Source: Candidatus Halobonum tyrrellensis G22
GTDB lineage: Archaea; Halobacteriota; Halobacteria; Halobacteriales; Haloferacaceae
Assembly (NCBI RefSeq): GCF_000495475.1
Contig: NZ_ASGZ01000023.1
Span: forward strand, 1-64,000
Direction: 5' to 3'
DNA: 64,000 nucleotides
The notes beneath the pieces were generated by a model. It made no database searches. It saw nothing but the letters and a program-made list of their open reading frames with translations, and had not been told where the DNA came from. The position numbers and the translations under genes are program-made. Below are positions 34,425 to 56,987 of the stretch, one piece after another (the stretch's first letter is position 1; every line of letters begins with the position of its first letter).

Positions 34425-37019
34425 TCAGTCGTCGCTCGCGTCCCCGTCCGGCAGGTCGACGGTGATCGTGTGTTCGCCCGGGCCGTACGTGCCGGTCGTC
34501 GCGTTCAGCAGTTCCTGCTGGTCGACCGTACTCAGCGAGAACTCGTCGTCGGGCATCGAGTAGACCGCGAGCGAGAACGCTCGGCTCGAACAGTTCTCCG
34601 CGACGGTGAACGTCACCGACGCGGTGCCGTTCCCCTCGTCGGTGATCGCGCCGTGGTCGACGCACTCGCGCAGCGTCTCGTTCTCCCACGCCGACCCGAG
34701 GGAGGTGATCCCCTCGTCGGCTTCGCCGAACGCGTACTGGAACAGGCGGTCGTCCTGCGCGTAGAGGTTGACGACCGAGAGGTTCTCGATGGGTTCACCC
34801 GCGACGAAGTCGACCTGGTAGAACGACGGTTTCGACCTGACGGGCAGTACCCGCGCCGTGAGACTCGCGTTCGCCGACGAGACGGTGACGGGAACGAGCG
34901 ACAGGCGCCGCTCCGGTTCCTCGCCGACGACCACGTCGAACGTCACCGTCGCCGTCTCGCCGGGGGCGAGCGTGACCGTCCTGCTCGCCGGCGACGACTC
35001 GACCGACGCGACCGTGACCGACTGGGTGACCGTCTCCGTACCGACGTTCTTCACGGTGGCGGTGACGGGTCCCGCCTCCCCCCACTCGAACGTCGCCGGC
35101 GCGTCGACGTCGGTCACTTCGAGGTAGCCGACCGACGCGTTCGTGTCGTCCGCCAGCGGGAGGTAGTCGGTGTCGTTCGGGCTCAGCGCGTTCGGGTCGT
35201 CGCAGATCCCGTCACGGTCGGCGTCCCGGCACGCCTCGCTGAAGCCCGTCCCGTCGACGACCGCGTAGTAGTTCCCGCCGGTCGTGGACCCGCCGACGAC
35301 GTTCTCGCCCGAGCGCGCGGTGACGTTCCACGCGTTCGAGTGATGCACGCGAATACCTGCGGCATGGGATTGACCCGGTCCGCGACCCCTCACGATGGCA
35401 CTCCTGTCCGCCGCGACGACGCGCTCCCCCCCCGCGGCGGTTTCGATCAGGTTGTCGTAGACGAGAGTCCGGTTGGCCCGGACGGACACTCCCACCTCGG
35501 TCGCGTTGTGTATCCGGTTGCTCCGGACCGTGTTCCCGTTCCCGTACACCACGACCCCCCGGCGGCTGTCGTTCGCGTCGTTCCCGACGACGGTGGTGTT
35601 CGATCCCTCGACCGAGAACCCGACTCCGTTCGACGCCGCGTCGTTCCCGACGACCGTGTTGTCCGATCCGTTGATAGAGAACCCGGATCCCCGATTCTCC
35701 GACGCCGCGTTGTCGGAGAGGGTGTTGTTCGCTCCGTCGATAGAGAACCCGTATATGCGGTTCTCCGACGCCGCGTTGTCGGAGAGGGTGTTGTTCGACC
35801 CGGAGACGGTCACCCCGTCGCCGTTGTTCGACGCCGTGACGTCGGAGAGGGTGTTGTTCGACCCGGTGACACCGATCCCGCGGGTGTTGACCCGTTCCAC
35901 CGTGCTGTCGGAGAGGGTGTTGTTCGACCCCCTGACGTAGACCCCGCCCCAACTGTTCGACACCGTGAGGTCGGTGACGGTGTTGTTCGCTCCCGTCATA
36001 TCCATCGCGTCCGTGCCGATGTCGACCAGAGTCACGTTGACGAACGCGTTGTCCGACCCCTCGACCTGCACGCCGTTGGAGGCGTGGACGATGGCCACGT
36101 CCTCGACGAGGGCGTCGGTCCCGTTCACCAGAAGCGTATTCGTGGTGTACGTGTCGGAGAGCGTGTTGTTCGACCCGCCGACGGCGACCCCCGTCACGAT
36201 CGTCTCCGAGACGTCGTTGCTCGCGACGACGTTGTCGGAGCCGACGATGACCATCCCGACCGCAGCCTCGCCGGTCACCTCGTTGTCGACGACCGTGTAG
36301 TTCGACCCACCGACGCGAACGCCGTAGTCGTCGTACGCGGTTTCGAGAGCGGTCATGTTGACCGTGTTCCCGTGGAGGGTCCCGTTCGACCCGCCCACGT
36401 ACAGGCCGCCGAGCGAGTCGCTCCCTTCCACGTTGGTCGTCGAGGTGACGCGCAGACCGTTGTCGACGACGGTCGCGTCGTCCGCGGTAACCCGGACTGC
36501 GGCGGCGTCCACGCTCGTGAACGCGGAGTCGCAGACCGCGACTCCCTCGCCGCCGTCGACTCGGAGGGGACGACCGGCCTCCGCGGTGACGTTCGCGACG
36601 ACGCCGCCGATCACGTTCCGGTACGCGACGCCGGTGGCGCCGTCACCCGCGCGCACCGTCACGTCCCGGACGGTGACGTTCGCGAGGGCGGTCGCTCCGC
36701 TCGCCCCGGCCACGATACCGCTGCCGTTCGAGGCGTTGCCGAGGGCGACCGCGTGGCCGTCCCCGTCGATGGACACGTCGTCGGTGCGGACCGCGATACA
36801 CGGCCCGCCGTCGGTCGGGTCGTCCGGGGAGACGTTCGAGGTCAGTTCGTACGCGCCCGGTTGGTCGATCACGGTACAGTCGGCGACCCCGGTCGGCGCC
36901 GCACTCGCGGTTCCCGCGACGAGGCTCACGCCCGCGATGCCCGCCGAAGCGACGATTACGACCGTCACTGCGAGCGTCAGGACTCCGCGACTCCGATTCT
37001 GTATGGTCTTAGATGACAT
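34425..37019 (-). CDS. Secreted right-handed beta-helix (NosD-like) protein with novel C-terminal domain
   Basis: Exported protein of 864 residues. Residues 1-40 are a Sec signal (LTLAVTVVIVASAGIAGVSL then ASAAP). Residues ~45-560 are a parallel beta-helix of short repeats, many reading GSNNTLSDN, as in NosD/PbH1 carbohydrate-binding or lyase proteins. GNYYAVVDGTGFSEACRDAD with DRDGICDD (about 590-630) is a calcium-type loop. A CARDB-like beta domain follows (about 650-730), then a 131-residue C-terminal domain (734-864) shared with the next two secreted proteins. The ATG at 37019 is 27 nt from TATA-like TTTATACG. Substrate unknown; polysaccharide is likely. Confidence 0.85.
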   Translation of the reverse strand: MSSKTIQNRSRGVLTLAVTVVIVASAGIAGVSLVAGTASAAPTGVADCTVIDQPGAYELTSNVSPDDPTDGGPCIAVRTDDVSIDGDGHAVALGNASNGSGIVAGASGATALANVTVRDVTVRAGDGATGVAYRNVIGGVVANVTAEAGRPLRVDGGEGVAVCDSAFTSVDAAAVRVTADDATVVDNGLRVTSTTNVEGSDSLGGLYVGGSNGTLHGNTVNMTALETAYDDYGVRVGGSNYTVVDNEVTGEAAVGMVIVGSDNVVASNDVSETIVTGVAVGGSNNTLSDTYTTNTLLVNGTDALVEDVAIVHASNGVQVEGSDNAFVNVTLVDIGTDAMDMTGANNTVTDLTVSNSWGGVYVRGSNNTLSDSTVERVNTRGIGVTGSNNTLSDVTASNNGDGVTVSGSNNTLSDNAASENRIYGFSIDGANNTLSDNAASENRGSGFSINGSDNTVVGNDAASNGVGFSVEGSNTTVVGNDANDSRRGVVVYGNGNTVRSNRIHNATEVGVSVRANRTLVYDNLIETAAGGERVVAADRSAIVRGRGPGQSHAAGIRVHHSNAWNVTARSGENVVGGSTTGGNYYAVVDGTGFSEACRDADRDGICDDPNALSPNDTDYLPLADDTNASVGYLEVTDVDAPATFEWGEAGPVTATVKNVGTETVTQSVTVASVESSPASRTVTLAPGETATVTFDVVVGEEPERRLSLVPVTVSSANASLTARVLPVRSKPSFYQVDFVAGEPIENLSVVNLYAQDDRLFQYAFGEADEGITSLGSAWENETLRECVDHGAITDEGNGTASVTFTVAENCSSRAFSLAVYSMPDDEFSLSTVDQQELLNATTGTYGPGEHTITVDLPDGDASDD

Positions 37020-37042
37020 ATACTGTACGACTCCGGTAGTAT

Positions 37043-37050
37043 CGTATAAA
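37043..37050 (-). promoter_or_regulatory. TATA-like box of the first beta-helix gene
   Basis: TTTATACG on the minus strand, centred about 27 nt upstream of the ATG at 37019. It predicts a leaderless transcript and fixes the start codon ahead of the longer open frame. Confidence 0.6.
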
Positions 37051-37190
37051 TTACACGGATCGTTCGGTAGACGAGTGGGTACACTCGCGGCCGTTCGGGT
37101 CGTCCGGAGCCGCCCCGCCCCTCGTGGAGCCGTCGACACTCCGGAGGCCGCCGACGCGGCAGTGTCGGGGAGGGCGACCGTCGCCCCCGG

Positions 37191-40145
37191 TCAGTCGTCG
37201 CTCTCGTTTCCGTCCGGCAGGTCGACGGTGATGGTGTGGTCGCCGGGGCCGAACGTCCCGGTGGTCGCGTTCAGCAGTTCCTGTTCGTCGGCGGTGTCCG
37301 CCGAGAATTCGTCGCCGGGCATCGAGTAGACCGCGAGCGACAGCGTCATCTCGTCGCAGTCGTCCGCGACGCTGAACGTCACACTCGCGGTGCCGTCGTC
37401 GTGTTCGCGAATGTGGCCGTACTCCACGCAGTCGCGGATCTCCGCGCTCGGCCACGCGGTGTCCTTCTCGGTGATGCCCTCTTCGACCGACCCGAACGCG
37501 AACCGCATCAGCCGGTCCTGCTCGGCGTACAGTCCCTCCTCGCCGAGTTCCTCTATCGGCTCGCCCGCGGCGAAGTCAACCTGGTAGTGCGTGGTCTCGC
37601 TCCCGTCGTCGTCGGCGACGGTGAGCGTCGTCTCCGCGCGCACGTCCCGCGAGGAGGCCGCGACGAGCACGCGGTACTCGCCGGCGTCGACCGCCCACTC
37701 GCCGGCCGCCTCGTCCCAGTAGCGGAACGCGTCGCCGCCCACCTCGACGGTGAACGTCTCGGTCGTGCCCGCGGGCACGGTCCGCTTGTCGAAGCCCGCG
37801 AGTTCCTTCGGCGGGCGCTCGACCGGCGAGTCCGTCGGCGCGAGGTACACCTGGACCGTCTCGGCGCCGTCGTACTCGCCCGCGTTGGTCACGTCGACGG
37901 AGACGGTGGCGCCCTCGTCGGCGGTCGTCTCGGCCGTCGACACCGACGCGTCGCCGTACGCGAACTCGGCGTAGCTCTCGCCGTGGCCGAACGGGAACAC
38001 GGGGTCGACGCCGGCGGCGTCGAAGTGGCGGTAGCCGACGAACACGCCCTCGTCGTAGTAGACGTCGCCCTCGATTCCGGGGTAGCCGCGGCCGTTCTCG
38101 GGGAGCGTGTTGATCTCCTGCGGGAGGTAGTCCTCGTACGACTCGGCGAACGTGATCGGGGTCTTCGCCGAGGGGGTCGACTCGCCGAACAGCAGGTTCG
38201 CCACCGCGGTGCCGGCCTCCTGACCGGGGTACCACACCTCCATCAGCGCGGGCACGTCGTCGACCCACGGGAGTTCGACGGCCGTCTCGGTGTTGAGCAG
38301 GACGACCGTGTTCTCGTTCGCCGCCGCGACCCGGCGGATCACCTCGTTTTGCACCTCTGGGAGGTTGAACTTGTAGCGGTCGTCGCCGTAGTTGGTGTAC
38401 GTCCGCGCGAGCACCACCGCGGCGTCGGCGTCGGCCGCCGCGGGGGCGGCGTCGGCGTACGCGGACGGCGGGTTCCACTCCAGCGCCGCCGGCGCCGGAC
38501 CGTGCACCTCGACGACCACCTCGTGGGCCGTCCCGGCCTCCAACTCGACGCTGGAGCGTTCGGGGACGATGACGAACCCCGCCGGCTCGTTGTACCCGAC
38601 GAGTTCGCCGTCGACGTAGACGTACCCCTGGCCGCGACTCGTGAAGGAGAGCCCGTACAGCCCCCCCTCGTCGGGCGTGACCGTCCCCTCCCAGCGAGCG
38701 GAGGCGAACTCGGCGTCCTCGGCGCCGACCGTCTCGGTCGTCCCCGTCGCCGTCGGCTCGCCGCCGAGGTCGTCGGTGTCGTAGTACTCGTAGGCGAACC
38801 CGTCGTCGGCGCTCACGGGTTCGAGACTCGACGTCGACGCCGTCTCGACGCTCACGCTCCCGCCGACGACCCGGTCGAGTCCCTCGACGGGTCCGACCTC
38901 GCCGCCGTCGGGGGTGCCGGTGATCGCGTCGCTGCCGCCGACGTCCTGTTTGAACGCGGTCGGCGTCGGGCCGACCAGCGCGAGCGAGTCCACCTCGGCG
39001 TCGTCGAACGGGAGGACGCCGTCGTTCTTCAGGAGGACCGACCCGTCCTCGGCCATCCGCCGGGCGAGCGCCCGGTGGTCGTCCGAGCCGATCACCGACT
39101 CGTCGCCGACGCCCTCGCGGTCGCCGCTCAGCGCGCCGATGTCCCGCTGGGAGCGCAGCCCCCGCAGGACCATGTCGTCGACGACGGACTCGTCGAGGTC
39201 GCCGTTCTCGACGGCCTCCGCGAGCGTCCCGCCGAAGTAGTTCTCCGACGGCATCTCGATATCGAGGCCGTTCCGCGCGGCGGTGACGGTGCTGTGAGTG
39301 CCGCCCCAGTCGGAGACGACGACCCCGTCGAACCCCCACTCGCCTTTGAGTATCTCCTCCAACAGGTAGGCGTTCTGACTACAGAACGTGGCGTTGACCA
39401 TGTTGTACGCGGGCATCACCGCGCCCGCGTCGCCCTCTCGGACCGCGGCCTTGAACGCCGGGAAGTAGATCTCCCGGAGCGCGCGCTCGCCGACGACGTC
39501 GTTGTGCTCGGAGATGGAGAAGCCGTCCTCGGCGGGACCGGTCGTCCGCGTCTGGTTGTACCCCACGAAGTGTTTCAGCGTCGCGATCACGCCGCCGTCT
39601 TGGATCGCGCCGGTGTACGCCGCCGCCATCGCGGCCGAGAGGACGGGGTCCTCGCCGTACGACTCGCCCGCGCGACTGCTGAACGGGACGCGGAACGCGT
39701 CCATCGACGGCGCGAGGTGGACGTCGACGCCCCACGCCTTCGTCTCGGCGGCGATCGCCGATCCTTCCGCCGCGACCAGGTCGGGGTCGAACGTCGACGC
39801 CGTCGAGACCGGGTGGGGGAAGTCGGTCGCCGGGACGCCGATCGACGCCCCCGGCGGCCCGTCGGCCATGTCGAGCGGGGGGATCCCCAGCGAGTCGACC
39901 CCCCGGACGCTCCCGGCGATCCCCTCCGGGGCGCCCTCGACGCTCGCGCCGTGGGTCCGCGCCACCTTCTGTTCGAGCGTCATCGACTCGACGAGCGACT
40001 CGATCCCCTCGCTGGTCTCGGCCGCCGCGGACGACGCACCCCCGAGCAGTCCGCCGCCCGCCGCCGTCAGCGCGCCCGTCAGTTTCAGGAACGTCCGTCG
40101 GTCCGCCCCGCCGCCGCGGTCACCGCCGCCGTTGTCGTCGTGCAT
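37191..40145 (-). CDS. Tat-exported GH3 beta-glycosidase with PA14 insert and shared C-terminal domain
   Basis: Glycoside hydrolase of 984 residues that would cleave beta-linked glucosides or xylosides outside the cell. A twin-arginine signal ADRRTFLKLTGALTAAGG lies at the N-terminus. The GH3 TIM-barrel (about 50-330) contains the nucleophile aspartate in VVVSDWGGTHS. The second GH3 domain is interrupted by a PA14 domain (about 460-590, TSRGQGYVYVDGELVGYN). A fibronectin-III-like domain follows (about 730-850), then the 131-residue C-terminal domain (854-984) also present in both beta-helix proteins. Minus-strand TTTATGCG (40171-40178) suits a leaderless start at 40145. A TrmB regulator is divergent. 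Confidence 0.92.
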   Translation of the reverse strand: MHDDNGGGDRGGGADRRTFLKLTGALTAAGGGLLGGASSAAAETSEGIESLVESMTLEQKVARTHGASVEGAPEGIAGSVRGVDSLGIPPLDMADGPPGASIGVPATDFPHPVSTASTFDPDLVAAEGSAIAAETKAWGVDVHLAPSMDAFRVPFSSRAGESYGEDPVLSAAMAAAYTGAIQDGGVIATLKHFVGYNQTRTTGPAEDGFSISEHNDVVGERALREIYFPAFKAAVREGDAGAVMPAYNMVNATFCSQNAYLLEEILKGEWGFDGVVVSDWGGTHSTVTAARNGLDIEMPSENYFGGTLAEAVENGDLDESVVDDMVLRGLRSQRDIGALSGDREGVGDESVIGSDDHRALARRMAEDGSVLLKNDGVLPFDDAEVDSLALVGPTPTAFKQDVGGSDAITGTPDGGEVGPVEGLDRVVGGSVSVETASTSSLEPVSADDGFAYEYYDTDDLGGEPTATGTTETVGAEDAEFASARWEGTVTPDEGGLYGLSFTSRGQGYVYVDGELVGYNEPAGFVIVPERSSVELEAGTAHEVVVEVHGPAPAALEWNPPSAYADAAPAAADADAAVVLARTYTNYGDDRYKFNLPEVQNEVIRRVAAANENTVVLLNTETAVELPWVDDVPALMEVWYPGQEAGTAVANLLFGESTPSAKTPITFAESYEDYLPQEINTLPENGRGYPGIEGDVYYDEGVFVGYRHFDAAGVDPVFPFGHGESYAEFAYGDASVSTAETTADEGATVSVDVTNAGEYDGAETVQVYLAPTDSPVERPPKELAGFDKRTVPAGTTETFTVEVGGDAFRYWDEAAGEWAVDAGEYRVLVAASSRDVRAETTLTVADDDGSETTHYQVDFAAGEPIEELGEEGLYAEQDRLMRFAFGSVEEGITEKDTAWPSAEIRDCVEYGHIREHDDGTASVTFSVADDCDEMTLSLAVYSMPGDEFSADTADEQELLNATTGTFGPGDHTITVDLPDGNESDD

Positions 40146-40214
40146 GACGGTCCGACCCACCGGCCCGGCCCGCATAAACGTATATTATGAATTGGGTTAT
40201 ACCTGTGGAATTTA

Positions 40215-40232
40215 TTTTGTACCGATACAAAA
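40215..40232. promoter_or_regulatory. Candidate TrmB operator between GH3 gene and regulator
   Basis: Perfect inverted repeat TTTTGTA-CCGA-TACAAAA, 7-bp arms around 4 nt. It lies in the 151-bp divergent intergenic region, about 70 nt from the GH3 start and 65 nt from the regulator start. The AT-rich palindrome stands out from GC-rich surroundings. Its position suggests a site for the adjacent TrmB-family protein. Confidence 0.6.
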
Positions 40233-40296
40233 ATCGAGGGTGGGCACGCGAGAGTATCCGGACGAGTGATACGACCCGCCCGCGTAGGTCGGGCGG

Positions 40297-41406
40297 ATGA
40301 GCGACGACCGGCGGCTGGTTGCGCAACTGGAACGGTTCGGACTCACCGAGAAGGAAGCGGCCGTCTACCTCGCGCTCGTCGACCGGGGTGAGGCGAAACC
40401 CCCCGTCGTCGCGTCCGACGCGGACGTCTCGGTCAGCTACGTCTACCAGGTGTGCGAGCGGCTCGAGACCGAGGGCCTGGTCACGGTGAACGACCACCGG
40501 ACGCCGACGACGATGCGCGCGCGGCCGCCCTCGGAGACGCTCCGTGCGCGCATCGACCGGATGCACGACGCGCTCGAGGCGGTGGAGCGGCGGTACGACC
40601 GGCCGACCGACGACATGGAGTCGCTGGAGGTGCTTCGCGCGCGGGCGGCGATGTACGAGCGCCTGCGGGGGCACGTCGAGAGCGCCGACGACGAACTGTT
40701 CGTCTCGGTCCCCCTCGCGGCGGTCCGCGAACTCGCCGACGCCCTGCGCGACGCCGTCGACCGCGGGGTGTTGGTGTTGCTCGCCGTCGGCGCCGAGGCG
40801 GGCGAGGTGCGCTCGGCCGACGTCGACGGCGTCGCGACCGCCGTCCGGCGGCGGGTGGGCGGGACGACCGTCTACGTCTCGGCGGACATGACCCGGGGGG
40901 TCGTCGCGCCCGCGTCGGTGCTCGGGTGGGACCACGGCGAGAGCGAGGGGGTCAGCTACGGCAACCTCACGGTCGCGGTGGCCGTCGAGAGCGCCTTCCT
41001 CGGGACGACGTGGCCGATGGCCGAGGAGGTGCTGCTCCGCCGACCGTCACCGCTCCCGCGGACGTACCGGACGATCCGCCCGGCGACGTACGACGCGACG
41101 CTCCACCGTCGCGCGGGGCGGACCGTTCGGGCGGAGGTCGAAGCGCGCCCCGCGCGAACCCGGGTCGACCTGGACACGTGGGACCCCGACGGGGCCACCC
41201 GGCGGTCGCTCGTCGGGACCGTCGTCGGGACGCGGCAGTGTCTCGTCGACCCGCCGACCGGCGAGTTCGCCCTGGAGAACGAGTTGTCGCTCGCGACCGG
41301 CGACGGGACGGTTCGCGTCGGCGGGCGCGGGGCGTTCAGGGAGGACTACGAGGCCGTCCGAGTCACCCTCCGCGGGGACGACGGCGGGACCGAGACCGGG
41401 GCGTGA
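40297..41406 (+). CDS. TrmB-family transcriptional regulator
   Basis: Sugar-responsive regulator of 369 residues. The N-terminal winged helix (about 8-80) has LERFGLTEKEAAVYLALVDR and VSVSYVYQVCERLETEGLV. A coiled-coil-like helix follows (LRARIDRMHDALEAVERRYD). The TrmB C-terminal effector domain has PLAAVRELADALRDAVDRGV and YVSADMTRGVVAPASVLGWD. TrmB proteins of haloarchaea and thermococci bind sugars and control sugar metabolism and uptake. Divergent from the GH3 glycosidase with a palindrome between them, it most likely controls this secreted-enzyme cluster and perhaps itself. Confidence 0.87.
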   Translation: MSDDRRLVAQLERFGLTEKEAAVYLALVDRGEAKPPVVASDADVSVSYVYQVCERLETEGLVTVNDHRTPTTMRARPPSETLRARIDRMHDALEAVERRYDRPTDDMESLEVLRARAAMYERLRGHVESADDELFVSVPLAAVRELADALRDAVDRGVLVLLAVGAEAGEVRSADVDGVATAVRRRVGGTTVYVSADMTRGVVAPASVLGWDHGESEGVSYGNLTVAVAVESAFLGTTWPMAEEVLLRRPSPLPRTYRTIRPATYDATLHRRAGRTVRAEVEARPARTRVDLDTWDPDGATRRSLVGTVVGTRQCLVDPPTGEFALENELSLATGDGTVRVGGRGAFREDYEAVRVTLRGDDGGTETGA

Positions 41407-41429
41407 GCCGCGCCGGCGCGGGGACGCCC

Positions 41430-41501
41430 GAACGGTTCGGGGGCGACGCCGCGGAACGGTTCGGGGCCGACGCCGCGGAACGGTTCGGCACTGACGCCGC
41501 G
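41430..41501. repeat. Three tandem 24-bp repeats
   Basis: Three head-to-tail copies of a 24-bp unit starting GAACGGTTCGG and ending GACGCCGCG (41430, 41454, 41478), with a few substitutions. The block lies between the convergent ends of the TrmB gene and the second beta-helix gene. In one rightward frame it would read ERFGxDAA three times, but no start serves that frame. It may be a shared 3' element or replication slippage product. Confidence 0.6.
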
Positions 41502-41511
41502 GGCGCCCGCG

Positions 41512-43293
41512 CTACCCGGGCAGGTCGACCGTGATGGTGTGCTCGCCGGGGCCGTACGTGCGGGTCGTCGCGTTCAGCAGTTCCTGCTGGTCGGCGGTGT
41601 CCGCGGAGAAGCCGTCGCCGGGCAGCGAGTAGGTCACGAGCGACAGCGTGACGCTCTCGCCGTCGGCGACGGTGAAGCTGACCGACGCGGCGCCGTCAGA
41701 CTCGACGACGTGACCGTAGTCGACGGCGTCGCGGATCTCGGCGCTCGGCCACGCGGTGTCTCTCTCCGTGATCCCCTCGTCGGTGTCGCCGAACGCGAAC
41801 CGGAGCAGGCGGTCCTCGCCGGCGTAGAGGCGGTCGGCGCTCAGGTTCTCGATCGGGTCGCCGGCGACGAAGTCGACCTGGTAGTCGGTGACGTTCGCCC
41901 CGCCCCCGTCGACGGGGGCGGCGGTGTCGTTCGCGGGGCCGGCGAGCGGGTGGACGTCGGTGTCGTTCTCGGTCAGTTCGTACGCCGAGTCGCAGAGACC
42001 GTCGCCGTCCGCGTCCGCACACGTCTGGCTGAACCCGGTTCCGTCGGCGGTCGCGTAGTAGTTGCCCGCGACGGCGTCGCCGCCGACCACGTTCTCGCCC
42101 GGCCGCGGCGTGACGTTCCACGCGTTCCCCGCGTTCGACGCCCGCGCGTCGGACGGCTCGCCGACCAGCGGGCCGAACAGGACCGGCCGGTCGAAGATGC
42201 CGAGGCTGGCGTCGAAGCGGTTGTCGTACACCAGACTCCCGCGGACGCCGGCTTCCAACTGGAGGGGCGACCGGAACTCGTTGGTCTCGACGGTGGCGTT
42301 CGTGACGTTCGTCAGCCGCGCGCCGACGAGCAGGTCGGACGCGAACCGGTTGCCCGCGAGGACCGTCCCGTCGGCCCCGTCGGCCGCGAGACCGACGACG
42401 AGGTCGCCGCTGAGCGCGTTCCCGTCGAGGACGGTGTCGGTGGTGTTCGCGAGCGTGACCGCCCGCCCGTCGACCGACCCGCCGTACAGCGTCGCGTTCG
42501 ACAGCCGAGTGTCGGCCGCGTCGGTCACCGCGACGCCCGCGCCGTCGAAGACGCTGGCGTACGACCCGCCGCGGACGCGGGTGCCCTCGCCCGTGACCGA
42601 CAGCGCCGGCCGCCCGGCGCTGGTGACGTTCCGGAGCGCGTTGCCGTCGCCGACGACGACGACGCCGGCGTACTCCGCGCCGACGGCCGAACTGTCGACG
42701 ACGCGGTTGCGGTCGCCGACGAGGGTCAAGCGCGTGCCCGTCACGTTCCGCACCGCGGCGTCGTCGCCGACGACGGCGACGCCGCCGCCGGGCCGCGAGG
42801 GGTTGGTCAGCGTCACGTCGAACGCCGCGACGGTCCCGTTCGTGACGCCGTCGTACCGCAGGGTCGGCCGCGGCGTCGCCACGTCGACCGCGAGACCGGT
42901 GACGGTCACGTTGTCGAGCGTCCCGGCGCCGTCCGCGAGCACGACCGGGTCGCCCCACGCGTCGTCCGTCGCGTCGACGGTGTGGCCGTCGCCGCGGACG
43001 GTCACGTCGCTCGACCGGACGTCGATGCAGACGGACGCACCCGCCGTCAGGTTCCGCTGGAGTTCGTACACGCCGGGTTCGGTGATGGTCGGACAGTTCG
43101 TCACGTCGGTCGACTGGGAGGGCTCCGGGGGCGCGCCGGCGCCGACGCCGGCGACGAGCGAGACGGCGAGGAGCAACGTCAGGGTCGTCGCCGCCACGCG
43201 CTTGCCCCGGGCGGTCGTCGCGAGAGCGAACACGGGTCGGGTCACCGACTCGCGGGCAGGTAAATCGCGCCGGTCGTTCCACGGGGTAGGCAC
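41512..43293 (-). CDS. Second secreted beta-helix (NosD-like) protein with shared C-terminal domain
   Basis: Exported protein of 593 residues. A hydrophobic segment at about 34-52 (AATTLTLLLAVSLVAGVGAG) is the signal peptide. A parallel beta-helix covers about 65-400. GNYYATADGTGFSQTCADAD with DGDGLCDS (about 405-440) repeats the calcium-type loop of the first beta-helix protein. The final 123 residues (471-593) are the shared C-terminal domain, here lacking the two cysteines of its relatives. GTG at 43293 is the longest start; a later GTG (VTRPVFALATT) would also retain the signal. A TATA-like CTATTTTATC at 43367-43376 implies a leader of ~50 nt. It is convergent with the TrmB gene. Confidence 0.84.
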   Translation of the reverse strand: MPTPWNDRRDLPARESVTRPVFALATTARGKRVAATTLTLLLAVSLVAGVGAGAPPEPSQSTDVTNCPTITEPGVYELQRNLTAGASVCIDVRSSDVTVRGDGHTVDATDDAWGDPVVLADGAGTLDNVTVTGLAVDVATPRPTLRYDGVTNGTVAAFDVTLTNPSRPGGGVAVVGDDAAVRNVTGTRLTLVGDRNRVVDSSAVGAEYAGVVVVGDGNALRNVTSAGRPALSVTGEGTRVRGGSYASVFDGAGVAVTDAADTRLSNATLYGGSVDGRAVTLANTTDTVLDGNALSGDLVVGLAADGADGTVLAGNRFASDLLVGARLTNVTNATVETNEFRSPLQLEAGVRGSLVYDNRFDASLGIFDRPVLFGPLVGEPSDARASNAGNAWNVTPRPGENVVGGDAVAGNYYATADGTGFSQTCADADGDGLCDSAYELTENDTDVHPLAGPANDTAAPVDGGGANVTDYQVDFVAGDPIENLSADRLYAGEDRLLRFAFGDTDEGITERDTAWPSAEIRDAVDYGHVVESDGAASVSFTVADGESVTLSLVTYSLPGDGFSADTADQQELLNATTRTYGPGEHTITVDLPG

Positions 43294-54185: not shown

Positions 54186-56987
54186 TCAGCGCCGCCGGGC
54201 GAGCAGCAGCGCGCCCGCGAGCGTCAGCAGCGCGACCAGCGCCGCGGACGCGCCGAAGCCGGGCGTGGTGGTCTCGGTGGCGCCGCCGCCCACCGCGGCG
54301 GTCTCGGTCCCGCCGAGCGCGGGCGCCTCCTCGGCCGTCGCCGTTTCGGTTCCGCCGTCGGTCGGGTTCGGCGTCCCGGTCGTCGCGTTCGCGCCGTCGC
54401 CGTCCACGCCGGGCGCGACCCCGACGGCGAACGCGGTGAACCCGTCGGTCTGTACCTCGTAGCGGTCGCCGCCGACGTTCGTCGTCTCCAGCGGCGTCCA
54501 CGAGCCGTCGACCAACCGGTAGACGACCACGTCGCCGGGCGACGCGCCCGCCGGAAGTTCCGACACGCTGAGCGAGACGGTGGCGCCGTCGAGCCGACGG
54601 GCGTTCAGCCCCACGCCCTCCGCCCGGAAGTACGCCACCGGCGTCGCGTCCGCGAGCGCGGGCACGCTCTCGGGCGATGCGGTCGGCGCGCCGACCTCGA
54701 TCCGGAAGTCGGCGGTGTCGAACCGGAACGCGAGCCGGAGCGACTCGACGGTGACGCCGGCGCCCGAGACGTCGACGTCGGCCTCGACGGGTTCGTCGGT
54801 GACCGCCTCGTCGACGGTGACCGTCGCGCCCGACGAGAGGTCGACCACCTCGTAGCTGGTTGCGGGACCGTCCCCGCCGCCCCCGCCGCCTCCGCCGCCG
54901 CTACTCCCACCGTCGCTACTTCCGCCGTCATCACCGCTGTCGCCGCCGTCGTCGGTCCCGTCGCCGCTACCGTCTCCGCCATCACCGCTGTCGCCGCCCT
55001 CGCTCTCGTTCCCGTCGACCGGCTGGGCCACCGTGGCGCTCAGCCGGAGTTCCGTCGGCGAGGGGGTGGCGTCGTGGCTGACCCGTACGGTCGCCCCCCG
55101 TTCGCCGGTCGCCTCGGGGGCGAACTCGACGGCGAGCGTCCGCTCGGCGCCCGGCGCGAGGTCGAACGACGCGTTCGACACCGCGTAGCCGGGCGCGGCG
55201 TCGGCGAGCGTGACGCCGGAGACGCGCACCGCGGCGTCGCCGGTGTTGCGGACCGTCACGTCGTACGTCACGTTCGACCCGAGCGTCACGTTCGCGCGGG
55301 CGGTCTCGGCGGCCGACAGCGAGACGTTCCCGGCGACCGCCCGGCCCGAGAGTTCGACGGTCGCGGGCGACCCCGCGCCGTCGTGGTCGAGCGTCAGCGT
55401 CCCCGCCGAACCGTTCGACCGCGCGGCGGGGGTCCACTCGACGGTGACCGCGCGCGCCTCGCCCGGCGCGAGGCTGCCGGTCGGGTCGCCGACCACCGCG
55501 AACGCCTCCGAGGCGGTGACGGCCGTCAGCGAGAGCGGCCCGGTGCCGACGTTCTCGACGGTCACGTTCCGCGCGGCCGTCTCGCCGACCGACACCGTAC
55601 CGAACGCCAGACTCGCGGGCGCGCTCAACTCCGCCGTGCCCGCGCCCGTGCCGGATAGCTGGACGGTCGTCGGCGACCCGTCGCCGCCGTGTTCCACCGT
55701 CAGCGTCGCCTCGTGCTCCCCCGCACCGGTGGGCGCGAACTCGACGGTCACGGTTCCGGTCCCGCCGGCCGCGACGGTGTCGGGCTCGTCCGTCACCGTG
55801 AACGCCGACGCGTTCGGCCCGGTTACCGTCGTGTTCGTGACCGACAGCGGGACGTTCCCGTCGTTGGCCACCGTCACCGCCTCGCTCGCGGTCCCGCCGA
55901 CCGACACCTCGCCGAACGAGAGACTCTCCTGGACGTCGATTGCGGCCGTCCCGGCGCCGGTGCCGGCGAGCGCGACCGAGGCGGGCGACCCGCTGGCGTT
56001 GTGCGCGACCGACAGCGTGGCCTGACGGGCGCCCGCCCCGGCGGGTGCGAACTCGACGGTTACGCTCCCGTTCGCGCCGGCCGCGACGGTGTCGGGCGCG
56101 TCCGTCACCGTGAACGCGCCGGCGTCCGCGCCGGTCACCTCCGCGCTCTCGAGCGACAGCGGCGCGCTCCCGCCGTTCGTCACCTCGACCGTTCCGGTCG
56201 CCGTCTCGCCGACCGACACTTCGCCGAACGAGAGGCTGCCCTGCACGTCGACCGTCGGCGTGCCGACGCCCGTCCCCGAGAGGCCGACCGTCGCGGGCGA
56301 CCCGCCGGCGTCGTGGTCGACCGACAGCGTCGACTCCTGTGCGCCCGCGCCCGTGGGCGTGAACCGCACGGTGACCGTCGCGCTCCCGTTGGGGGCGACG
56401 GTCGCGGGCGCGTCCGCGACGGAGAACGCCCCCGACGCGGTCGCGCTTTCGAGCGACAGCGTCGCGGTGCCGGGGTTCTCGACGGTCACCTCGGCGGTCG
56501 CCGTCTCGCCGACCGCCACCTCGCCGAACGAGACGGGACCGCCGACCCGTATCTCGGGCGTGCCGACGCCCGTCCCGGATAGCTGGACGGTCGCGGGTGA
56601 CTCGCTCGCGTCGTGGTCGACCGACAGTACGGCCTGTTCGGACCCGACGCTCGTCGGCGCGAACTCGACGGTGACCGTCTCGGTGGCGTTGGCCGCGACG
56701 GTGTCGGGCGCGTTCGTGACGGTGAACGCCGATACGTTCGGATCGACCACTTCCGCCCCGACGACCGACAGCGGGGCGTTCCCGCCGTTGGTCAGTTCCA
56801 CCTCGGCCGTCGCCGTCTCGCCGACAGCCACCTCGCCGAACGAGGCGTCGCCGGCGACCTGGAGTTCGGCGGTCCCGGTGCCAGCGCCGGTGAGCGCGAC
56901 CGTCGCGGGCGATCCGCCCGCGTCGTGGTCGACCGACAGTACGGCTTGTTTGGACCCGACGCTCGTCGGCGCGAACTCGACGGTCAC
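54186..56987 (-). CDS. C-terminal part of giant subtilase: ASH/HYDIN-like repeats, PGF-pre-PGF and PGF-CTERM
   Basis: Frame of 933 residues, the continuation of the protease at 56984-59278 after a one-base loss near 57000. It starts inside the second repeat, runs through six more ~105-residue choice-of-anchor-D (ASH/HYDIN-like) repeats (typical unit: SFGEVAVGETATAEV, then TVTVEFAPTSVGS, then LSVDHDASESPATVQLSGTG), a Gly-Ser-Asp linker, a PGF-pre-PGF domain (SGAGVTVESLRLAFRFDTAD) and a PGF-CTERM signal (TTTPGFGASAAL, helix, ARRR) for archaeosortase-mediated lipid anchoring. GTG at 56987 overlaps the upstream TGA (GTGA), so coupled restart could make this half, but it has no export signal. Confidence 0.8.
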   Translation of the reverse strand: MTVEFAPTSVGSKQAVLSVDHDAGGSPATVALTGAGTGTAELQVAGDASFGEVAVGETATAEVELTNGGNAPLSVVGAEVVDPNVSAFTVTNAPDTVAANATETVTVEFAPTSVGSEQAVLSVDHDASESPATVQLSGTGVGTPEIRVGGPVSFGEVAVGETATAEVTVENPGTATLSLESATASGAFSVADAPATVAPNGSATVTVRFTPTGAGAQESTLSVDHDAGGSPATVGLSGTGVGTPTVDVQGSLSFGEVSVGETATGTVEVTNGGSAPLSLESAEVTGADAGAFTVTDAPDTVAAGANGSVTVEFAPAGAGARQATLSVAHNASGSPASVALAGTGAGTAAIDVQESLSFGEVSVGGTASEAVTVANDGNVPLSVTNTTVTGPNASAFTVTDEPDTVAAGGTGTVTVEFAPTGAGEHEATLTVEHGGDGSPTTVQLSGTGAGTAELSAPASLAFGTVSVGETAARNVTVENVGTGPLSLTAVTASEAFAVVGDPTGSLAPGEARAVTVEWTPAARSNGSAGTLTLDHDGAGSPATVELSGRAVAGNVSLSAAETARANVTLGSNVTYDVTVRNTGDAAVRVSGVTLADAAPGYAVSNASFDLAPGAERTLAVEFAPEATGERGATVRVSHDATPSPTELRLSATVAQPVDGNESEGGDSGDGGDGSGDGTDDGGDSGDDGGSSDGGSSGGGGGGGGGDGPATSYEVVDLSSGATVTVDEAVTDEPVEADVDVSGAGVTVESLRLAFRFDTADFRIEVGAPTASPESVPALADATPVAYFRAEGVGLNARRLDGATVSLSVSELPAGASPGDVVVYRLVDGSWTPLETTNVGGDRYEVQTDGFTAFAVGVAPGVDGDGANATTGTPNPTDGGTETATAEEAPALGGTETAAVGGGATETTTPGFGASAALVALLTLAGALLLARRR

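Follow-up and report, generated by a model that had tools for sequence, protein, structure and literature searches.

An undescribed domain family on exported proteins of Candidatus Halobonum tyrrellensis G22 and its possible role in surface retention

In this study, we show that three neighbouring genes of Candidatus Halobonum tyrrellensis G22 encode exported proteins that end in the same module of about 130 residues, and that this module recurs throughout the genome of this haloarchaeon. The genes lie in the window, by which we mean the whole 64,000-nucleotide stretch that was analysed (contig NZ_ASGZ01000023.1, positions 1 to 64,000). As judged from its sequence, the module is an undescribed domain family, and the common denominator of its hosts is export, not substrate. 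We propose, with a probability of about one half, that the module is not cleaved off and would serve to retain exported, otherwise unanchored proteins through a partner common to all of them.

The three modules of the window and their family

The modules of the window (Table 1) share 60-70% pairwise identity over about 127-136 aa and match the profile with E values of 1e-72 to 1e-81, far above chance; the stop codon of each gene lies at or just past the module end. The original prediction had described a C-terminal module of this size on two beta-helix proteins and a GH3 glycosidase, in a cluster with a TrmB regulator, and each of these points is borne out by the profile matches and by Pfam. 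The residue numbers first given for the modules hold for alternative, later start codons (lengths of 864, 984 and 593 aa, as against open reading frames of 904, 994 and 593 aa). The TrmB regulator is a neighbour and stands outside the module system. Neither a lipobox nor a C-terminal membrane segment was detected in the products of host genes A and B.

Table 1. Positions of the modules, their host genes and nearby features in the window
Feature	Position	Strand	Basis and remarks
Module copy A	34428..34832	-	Residues 770-904, C-terminal ~135 of a 904-aa beta-helix protein; profile match E 3e-78 and alignment
Host gene A, exported right-handed beta-helix (NosD-like) protein	34425..37139	-	Pfam Beta_helix 5.7e-36, NosD 6.1e-25
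Module copy B	37194..37598	-	Residues 860-994, C-terminal 135 of the GH3 glycosidase; profile match E 5.7e-81
Host gene B, Tat-exported GH3 glycosidase with PA14 and Fn3-like domains	37191..40175	-	Pfam; Tat motif DRRTFLKLTG
TrmB-type sugar-responsive regulator	40297..41406	+	Divergently oriented, in the interval from host gene B to host gene C; Pfam TrmB 5.2e-14, Regulator_TrmB 9.2e-40
Module copy C	41515..41895	-	Residues 467-593, C-terminal ~127 of a 593-aa beta-helix protein; profile match E 2.6e-72
Host gene C, exported NosD-like beta-helix protein	41512..43293	-	Pfam NosD 4.6e-12
PGF-CTERM signal	54189..54278	-	On a 953-aa open frame; over the cut-off jointly with its neighbours in the frame

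The window modules have no match over the cut-off in Pfam (models to 2025) or NCBIfam 20.0 and none among PDB sequences, so that a known family was dismissed as the identity of the module and the earlier view of it as unrecognised stands. This includes the CBM families in Pfam and the dockerin profiles; the Cohesin profile gave a single match to one module member at E 0.048, which is not significant. The home genome has no cohesin over the cut-off; a weak cohesin-like match below it (E 2e-4; G000:C68:107597-107920, in a 951-aa open frame) is a conceivable partner. Literature searches by motif strings and by keyword found no description of the module. AlphaFold2 models from three sequences (pLDDT 67 and 64, medium confidence) contain strands and one or more short helices, and Foldseek with the first of them gave no match at E <= 0.001. 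We take the module to be an independently folding domain, probably a beta-sandwich.

Two cysteines are either both present (52/83 modules) or both absent (31/83), with no exceptions. Copy B carries the pair at about residues 916 and 940, and copy C has neither. One cysteine falls in a predicted helix and the other after the central strand, and the tree requires at least 10 changes of each; only three independent pairs lie on well-supported branches, and the phylogenetic test alone is therefore weak (p=0.25). The covariation points to a predicted disulphide that would usually pin the module. Moreover, the polar positions Q6, D8, R29 and Q106 are well conserved and recur in the permuted planctomycete relative described below, which suggests a conserved site, though the role of these residues could be structural.

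Hosts, placement and relatives

A profile search of the 3.68-Mb home genome finds 33 copies, spread over 17 contigs; one of them is partial (C35), and each host has a single module. The hosts belong to at least 15 protein kinds, mostly exported, and some 12 of the 33 are CAZyme-like. They include glycosidases (GH2 x2, GH3 x2, GH10, GH15, GH43 and GH51, the last labelled from PDB matches, with only a weak ASD1_dom match in Pfam), phosphorus-linked proteins (PhoD, 5'-nucleotidase, phytase-like), M14 and InhA-MAM peptidase-type proteins, and lyase-like, beta-helix, cupredoxin, choice-of-anchor I, VWA, DUF7282 and FG-GAP proteins; the lyase-like and cupredoxin labels come partly from reading the sequences, Pfam being silent or just under the cut-off. 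Thus the module does sit on different scaffolds, as proposed, and is not particular to this cluster or a product of local duplication.

The module had also been described as placed last. By a simple distance rule this is the case for 23 of the 33 copies, while 6 are N-terminal and 4 internal, one of which (L061) may be a frame artefact. The stop-to-stop frame of L061 passes through the module into an antisense-like translation and begins with no signal peptide; a frameshift or assembly error is possible. The module of the GH51 enzyme stands between two segments of the catalytic domain, inserted in the barrel at about residue 144 of 3s2c. Because of the N-terminal copies and the copy inside the GH51 barrel, the module is not a cleaved C-terminal sorting tail. 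The range of placements, together with the GH51 insertion, fits a self-contained domain with neighbouring termini.

The distribution among Halobacteria is patchy: of 394 genomes sampled, 39 gave a match, and these belong to 14 of 86 genera. The scoring had a cap for each genome, so that the copy numbers from this sample are lower bounds. The three-sequence profile matched 9 of 171 genomes of the home family, and the module was found in 3/295 genomes of the wider phylum sample. A homologous domain with its two halves swapped, that is, a circular permutation, occurs in a surface protein of a planctomycete, the SdrD B-like Gemmataceae protein L090, which also differs from the haloarchaeal hosts in its SdrD_B repeats. 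A permuted haloarchaeal model built without L090 gave 78 bits (i-Evalue 2.6e-20 at Z = one million), and with the unpermuted model the match breaks into two pieces. This permuted relative indicates that the natural termini of the module are close together. The expectation that the family is widespread in planctomycetes is not supported (1/343 genomes, plus one weak partial match).

Some divergent relatives in other haloarchaea (L085, L124, L159, L160) sit just before a C-terminal membrane segment, so that the module cannot be the sole anchor in those organisms; this speaks against retention as its only function. Members from one other genus (L133, L138, L139, L142, L146, L147, L149, L150) have a helical tandem region ahead of the module, with the motif LTDEQR.AIADAI..GDLSDDQL.AL..AL.DG.LT.AERDALGFLG; it is possibly dockerin- or EF-hand-like, and Pfam scans of two of these members (L133, L139) gave it no match over the cut-off. 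In DUF302-type proteins of other haloarchaeal genera (L123, L083, L084; Pfam-confirmed for L123 only), the module lies ahead of the DUF302 region. Genome G401 carries three divergent copies in two adjacent genes, two of them in one gene (L157).

Export, other anchors and cassette copying

In the hosts examined, the module goes with export and with the absence of any other anchor. A strict Tat scan of 1.87 Mb of the genome, many of whose contigs were taken because they bear modules, found a lipobox or C-terminal membrane segment in 0 of 16 module carriers, whereas 36 of 43 non-carriers are anchored (Fisher p=2e-9); an earlier, looser scan pointed in the same direction. Of the 43 non-carriers, 32 are lipoproteins and 4 have a C-terminal membrane segment; the other 7 are unanchored, and about three of these look like false calls. 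The unselected contigs (0.49 Mb) hold 4 Tat lipoproteins, 1 unanchored Tat protein and no modules. A good many lipoproteins resemble solute-binding proteins, and function therefore partly confounds the exclusivity of module and anchor. This confounding is avoided by the GH2 and GH3 paralogues: a Tat signal is present in 4/4 with the module, and a signal peptide in 0/8 of those examined without it (four GH3, four GH2; Fisher p=0.002), one further GH2 without the module (C36) having been left out.

None of the 33 module hosts has a C-terminal membrane segment, and hence none has the PGF motif with its hydrophobic helix and its basic end. Eight PGF-CTERM proteins of the home genome are over the cut-off (TIGR04126), and none of these places coincides with a module host. 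The PGF-CTERM signal in the window (Table 1) indicates that the genome has the usual archaeosortase route as well.

Identity at the DNA level reaches 92% over 371 bp between the modules of GH15 and GH2 hosts and 94.7% over 412 bp between those of DUF7282 and 5'-nucleotidase hosts. These matches stop no more than about 25 bp from the edges of the module; other pairs run further where the hosts are themselves related (e.g., L063 and L064). Such identity on unrelated hosts, with edges at the module, shows recent cassette-like copying of the domain. The nearest DNA relatives of the window modules are on other contigs rather than one another, and a recent local triplication was dismissed on these grounds. 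Viral or plasmid spread was also dismissed; no relative was found among viral_contigs, and the only plasmid protein was one from Halococcus dombrowskii.

Proposed role, alternatives and known systems

The haloarchaeon has copied the cassette onto exported proteins that lack a lipid or transmembrane anchor, many of which use Tat. We suggest that the module would bind one partner shared by all hosts, either on the cell surface or in the matrix outside the cell, with S-layer glycan or an exopolysaccharide as candidates. Hydrolases of polysaccharides, phosphate compounds and peptides could thus stay near the cell rather than diffuse away. Retention is the best reading because the module follows export, has been copied intact, tolerates any position and sits on proteins for which no other anchor is seen in the genome. 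The original prediction of a targeting, anchoring or binding role holds to this extent; it is its limitation to polysaccharide enzymes that gives way. With phosphatases, peptidases and a cupredoxin among the hosts, one substrate polymer common to all of them is less likely than general retention.

The module might instead be a new carbohydrate-binding module that directs glycosidases and lyases to polymeric substrates. The share of CAZyme-like hosts, which would rise if the beta-helix hosts are lyases, the TrmB sugar regulator in the window cluster and the flexible terminal or internal placement, which is usual for binding modules, are all in keeping with this. However, near-identical modules occur on hosts without a common substrate, such as the 94.7% identical pair above, the carriers extend to PhoD, peptidases and a cupredoxin, and no Pfam CBM family matches, so we regard this explanation as unlikely; if the bound glycan were the cell's own, it would merge with retention. 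We are slightly more doubtful of a maturation, stability or solubility domain that aids folding, Tat quality control or survival in salt and binds no partner. Such a domain would explain why the host range tracks export and not substrate, and the acid-rich sequence with its covarying cysteine pair would suit it. Yet Sec-type hosts, e.g. the two beta-helix proteins of the window, carry the module as well, which is therefore not Tat-specific, and most haloarchaea have no module on the similar enzymes that they export (any copy in 39/394 genomes); Q6, D8, R29 and Q106 would also speak for a conserved site, unless they are structural.

A neutral mobile segment with no selected function, spread by recombination between secreted genes, could account for the patchy distribution and for recent copying that stops at the module edges. 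Since the copies preserve the frame and the conserved residues, the cysteine pair switches only as a pair through at least 10 changes on the tree, and the copies are on exported and not on cytoplasmic paralogues, we consider this very improbable.

The family is large and marks much of the unanchored secretome of one haloarchaeon; if retention is its role, it would offer a handle on how archaea lacking an outer membrane keep secreted enzymes close. More tentatively, and with considerable doubt on our part, the carriers might be keyed by a folded cassette tag, copied onto unrelated enzymes as required, to a dedicated surface receptor; if true, this would be a third archaeal retention route beside lipid anchors and archaeosortase tails, and in effect an archaeal counterpart of cellulosome logic. 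The recent copies on unrelated enzymes of the same genome, together with the permuted bacterial relative, make a clean natural case of domain transplantation.

The Tat-exported carriers count among the haloarchaeal Tat substrates of the soluble class (Gimenez et al.); here most members of that class carry one common added domain, which does not appear in the title of that paper. As with dockerin-cohesin systems and CBMs, a single organism has the accessory module on many of its secreted hydrolases; the module differs from them in having no significant profile match and in its hosts beyond glycan enzymes. There is also a likeness to the PGF-CTERM/archaeosortase signals, which recur at the C-termini of many unrelated proteins that haloarchaea export and are proposed to set their destination. 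In contrast to the short motif and membrane helix of PGF-CTERM, the module is a folded domain of about 130 residues, which can be N-terminal or internal and occurs in the same genome beside a separate PGF-CTERM set.
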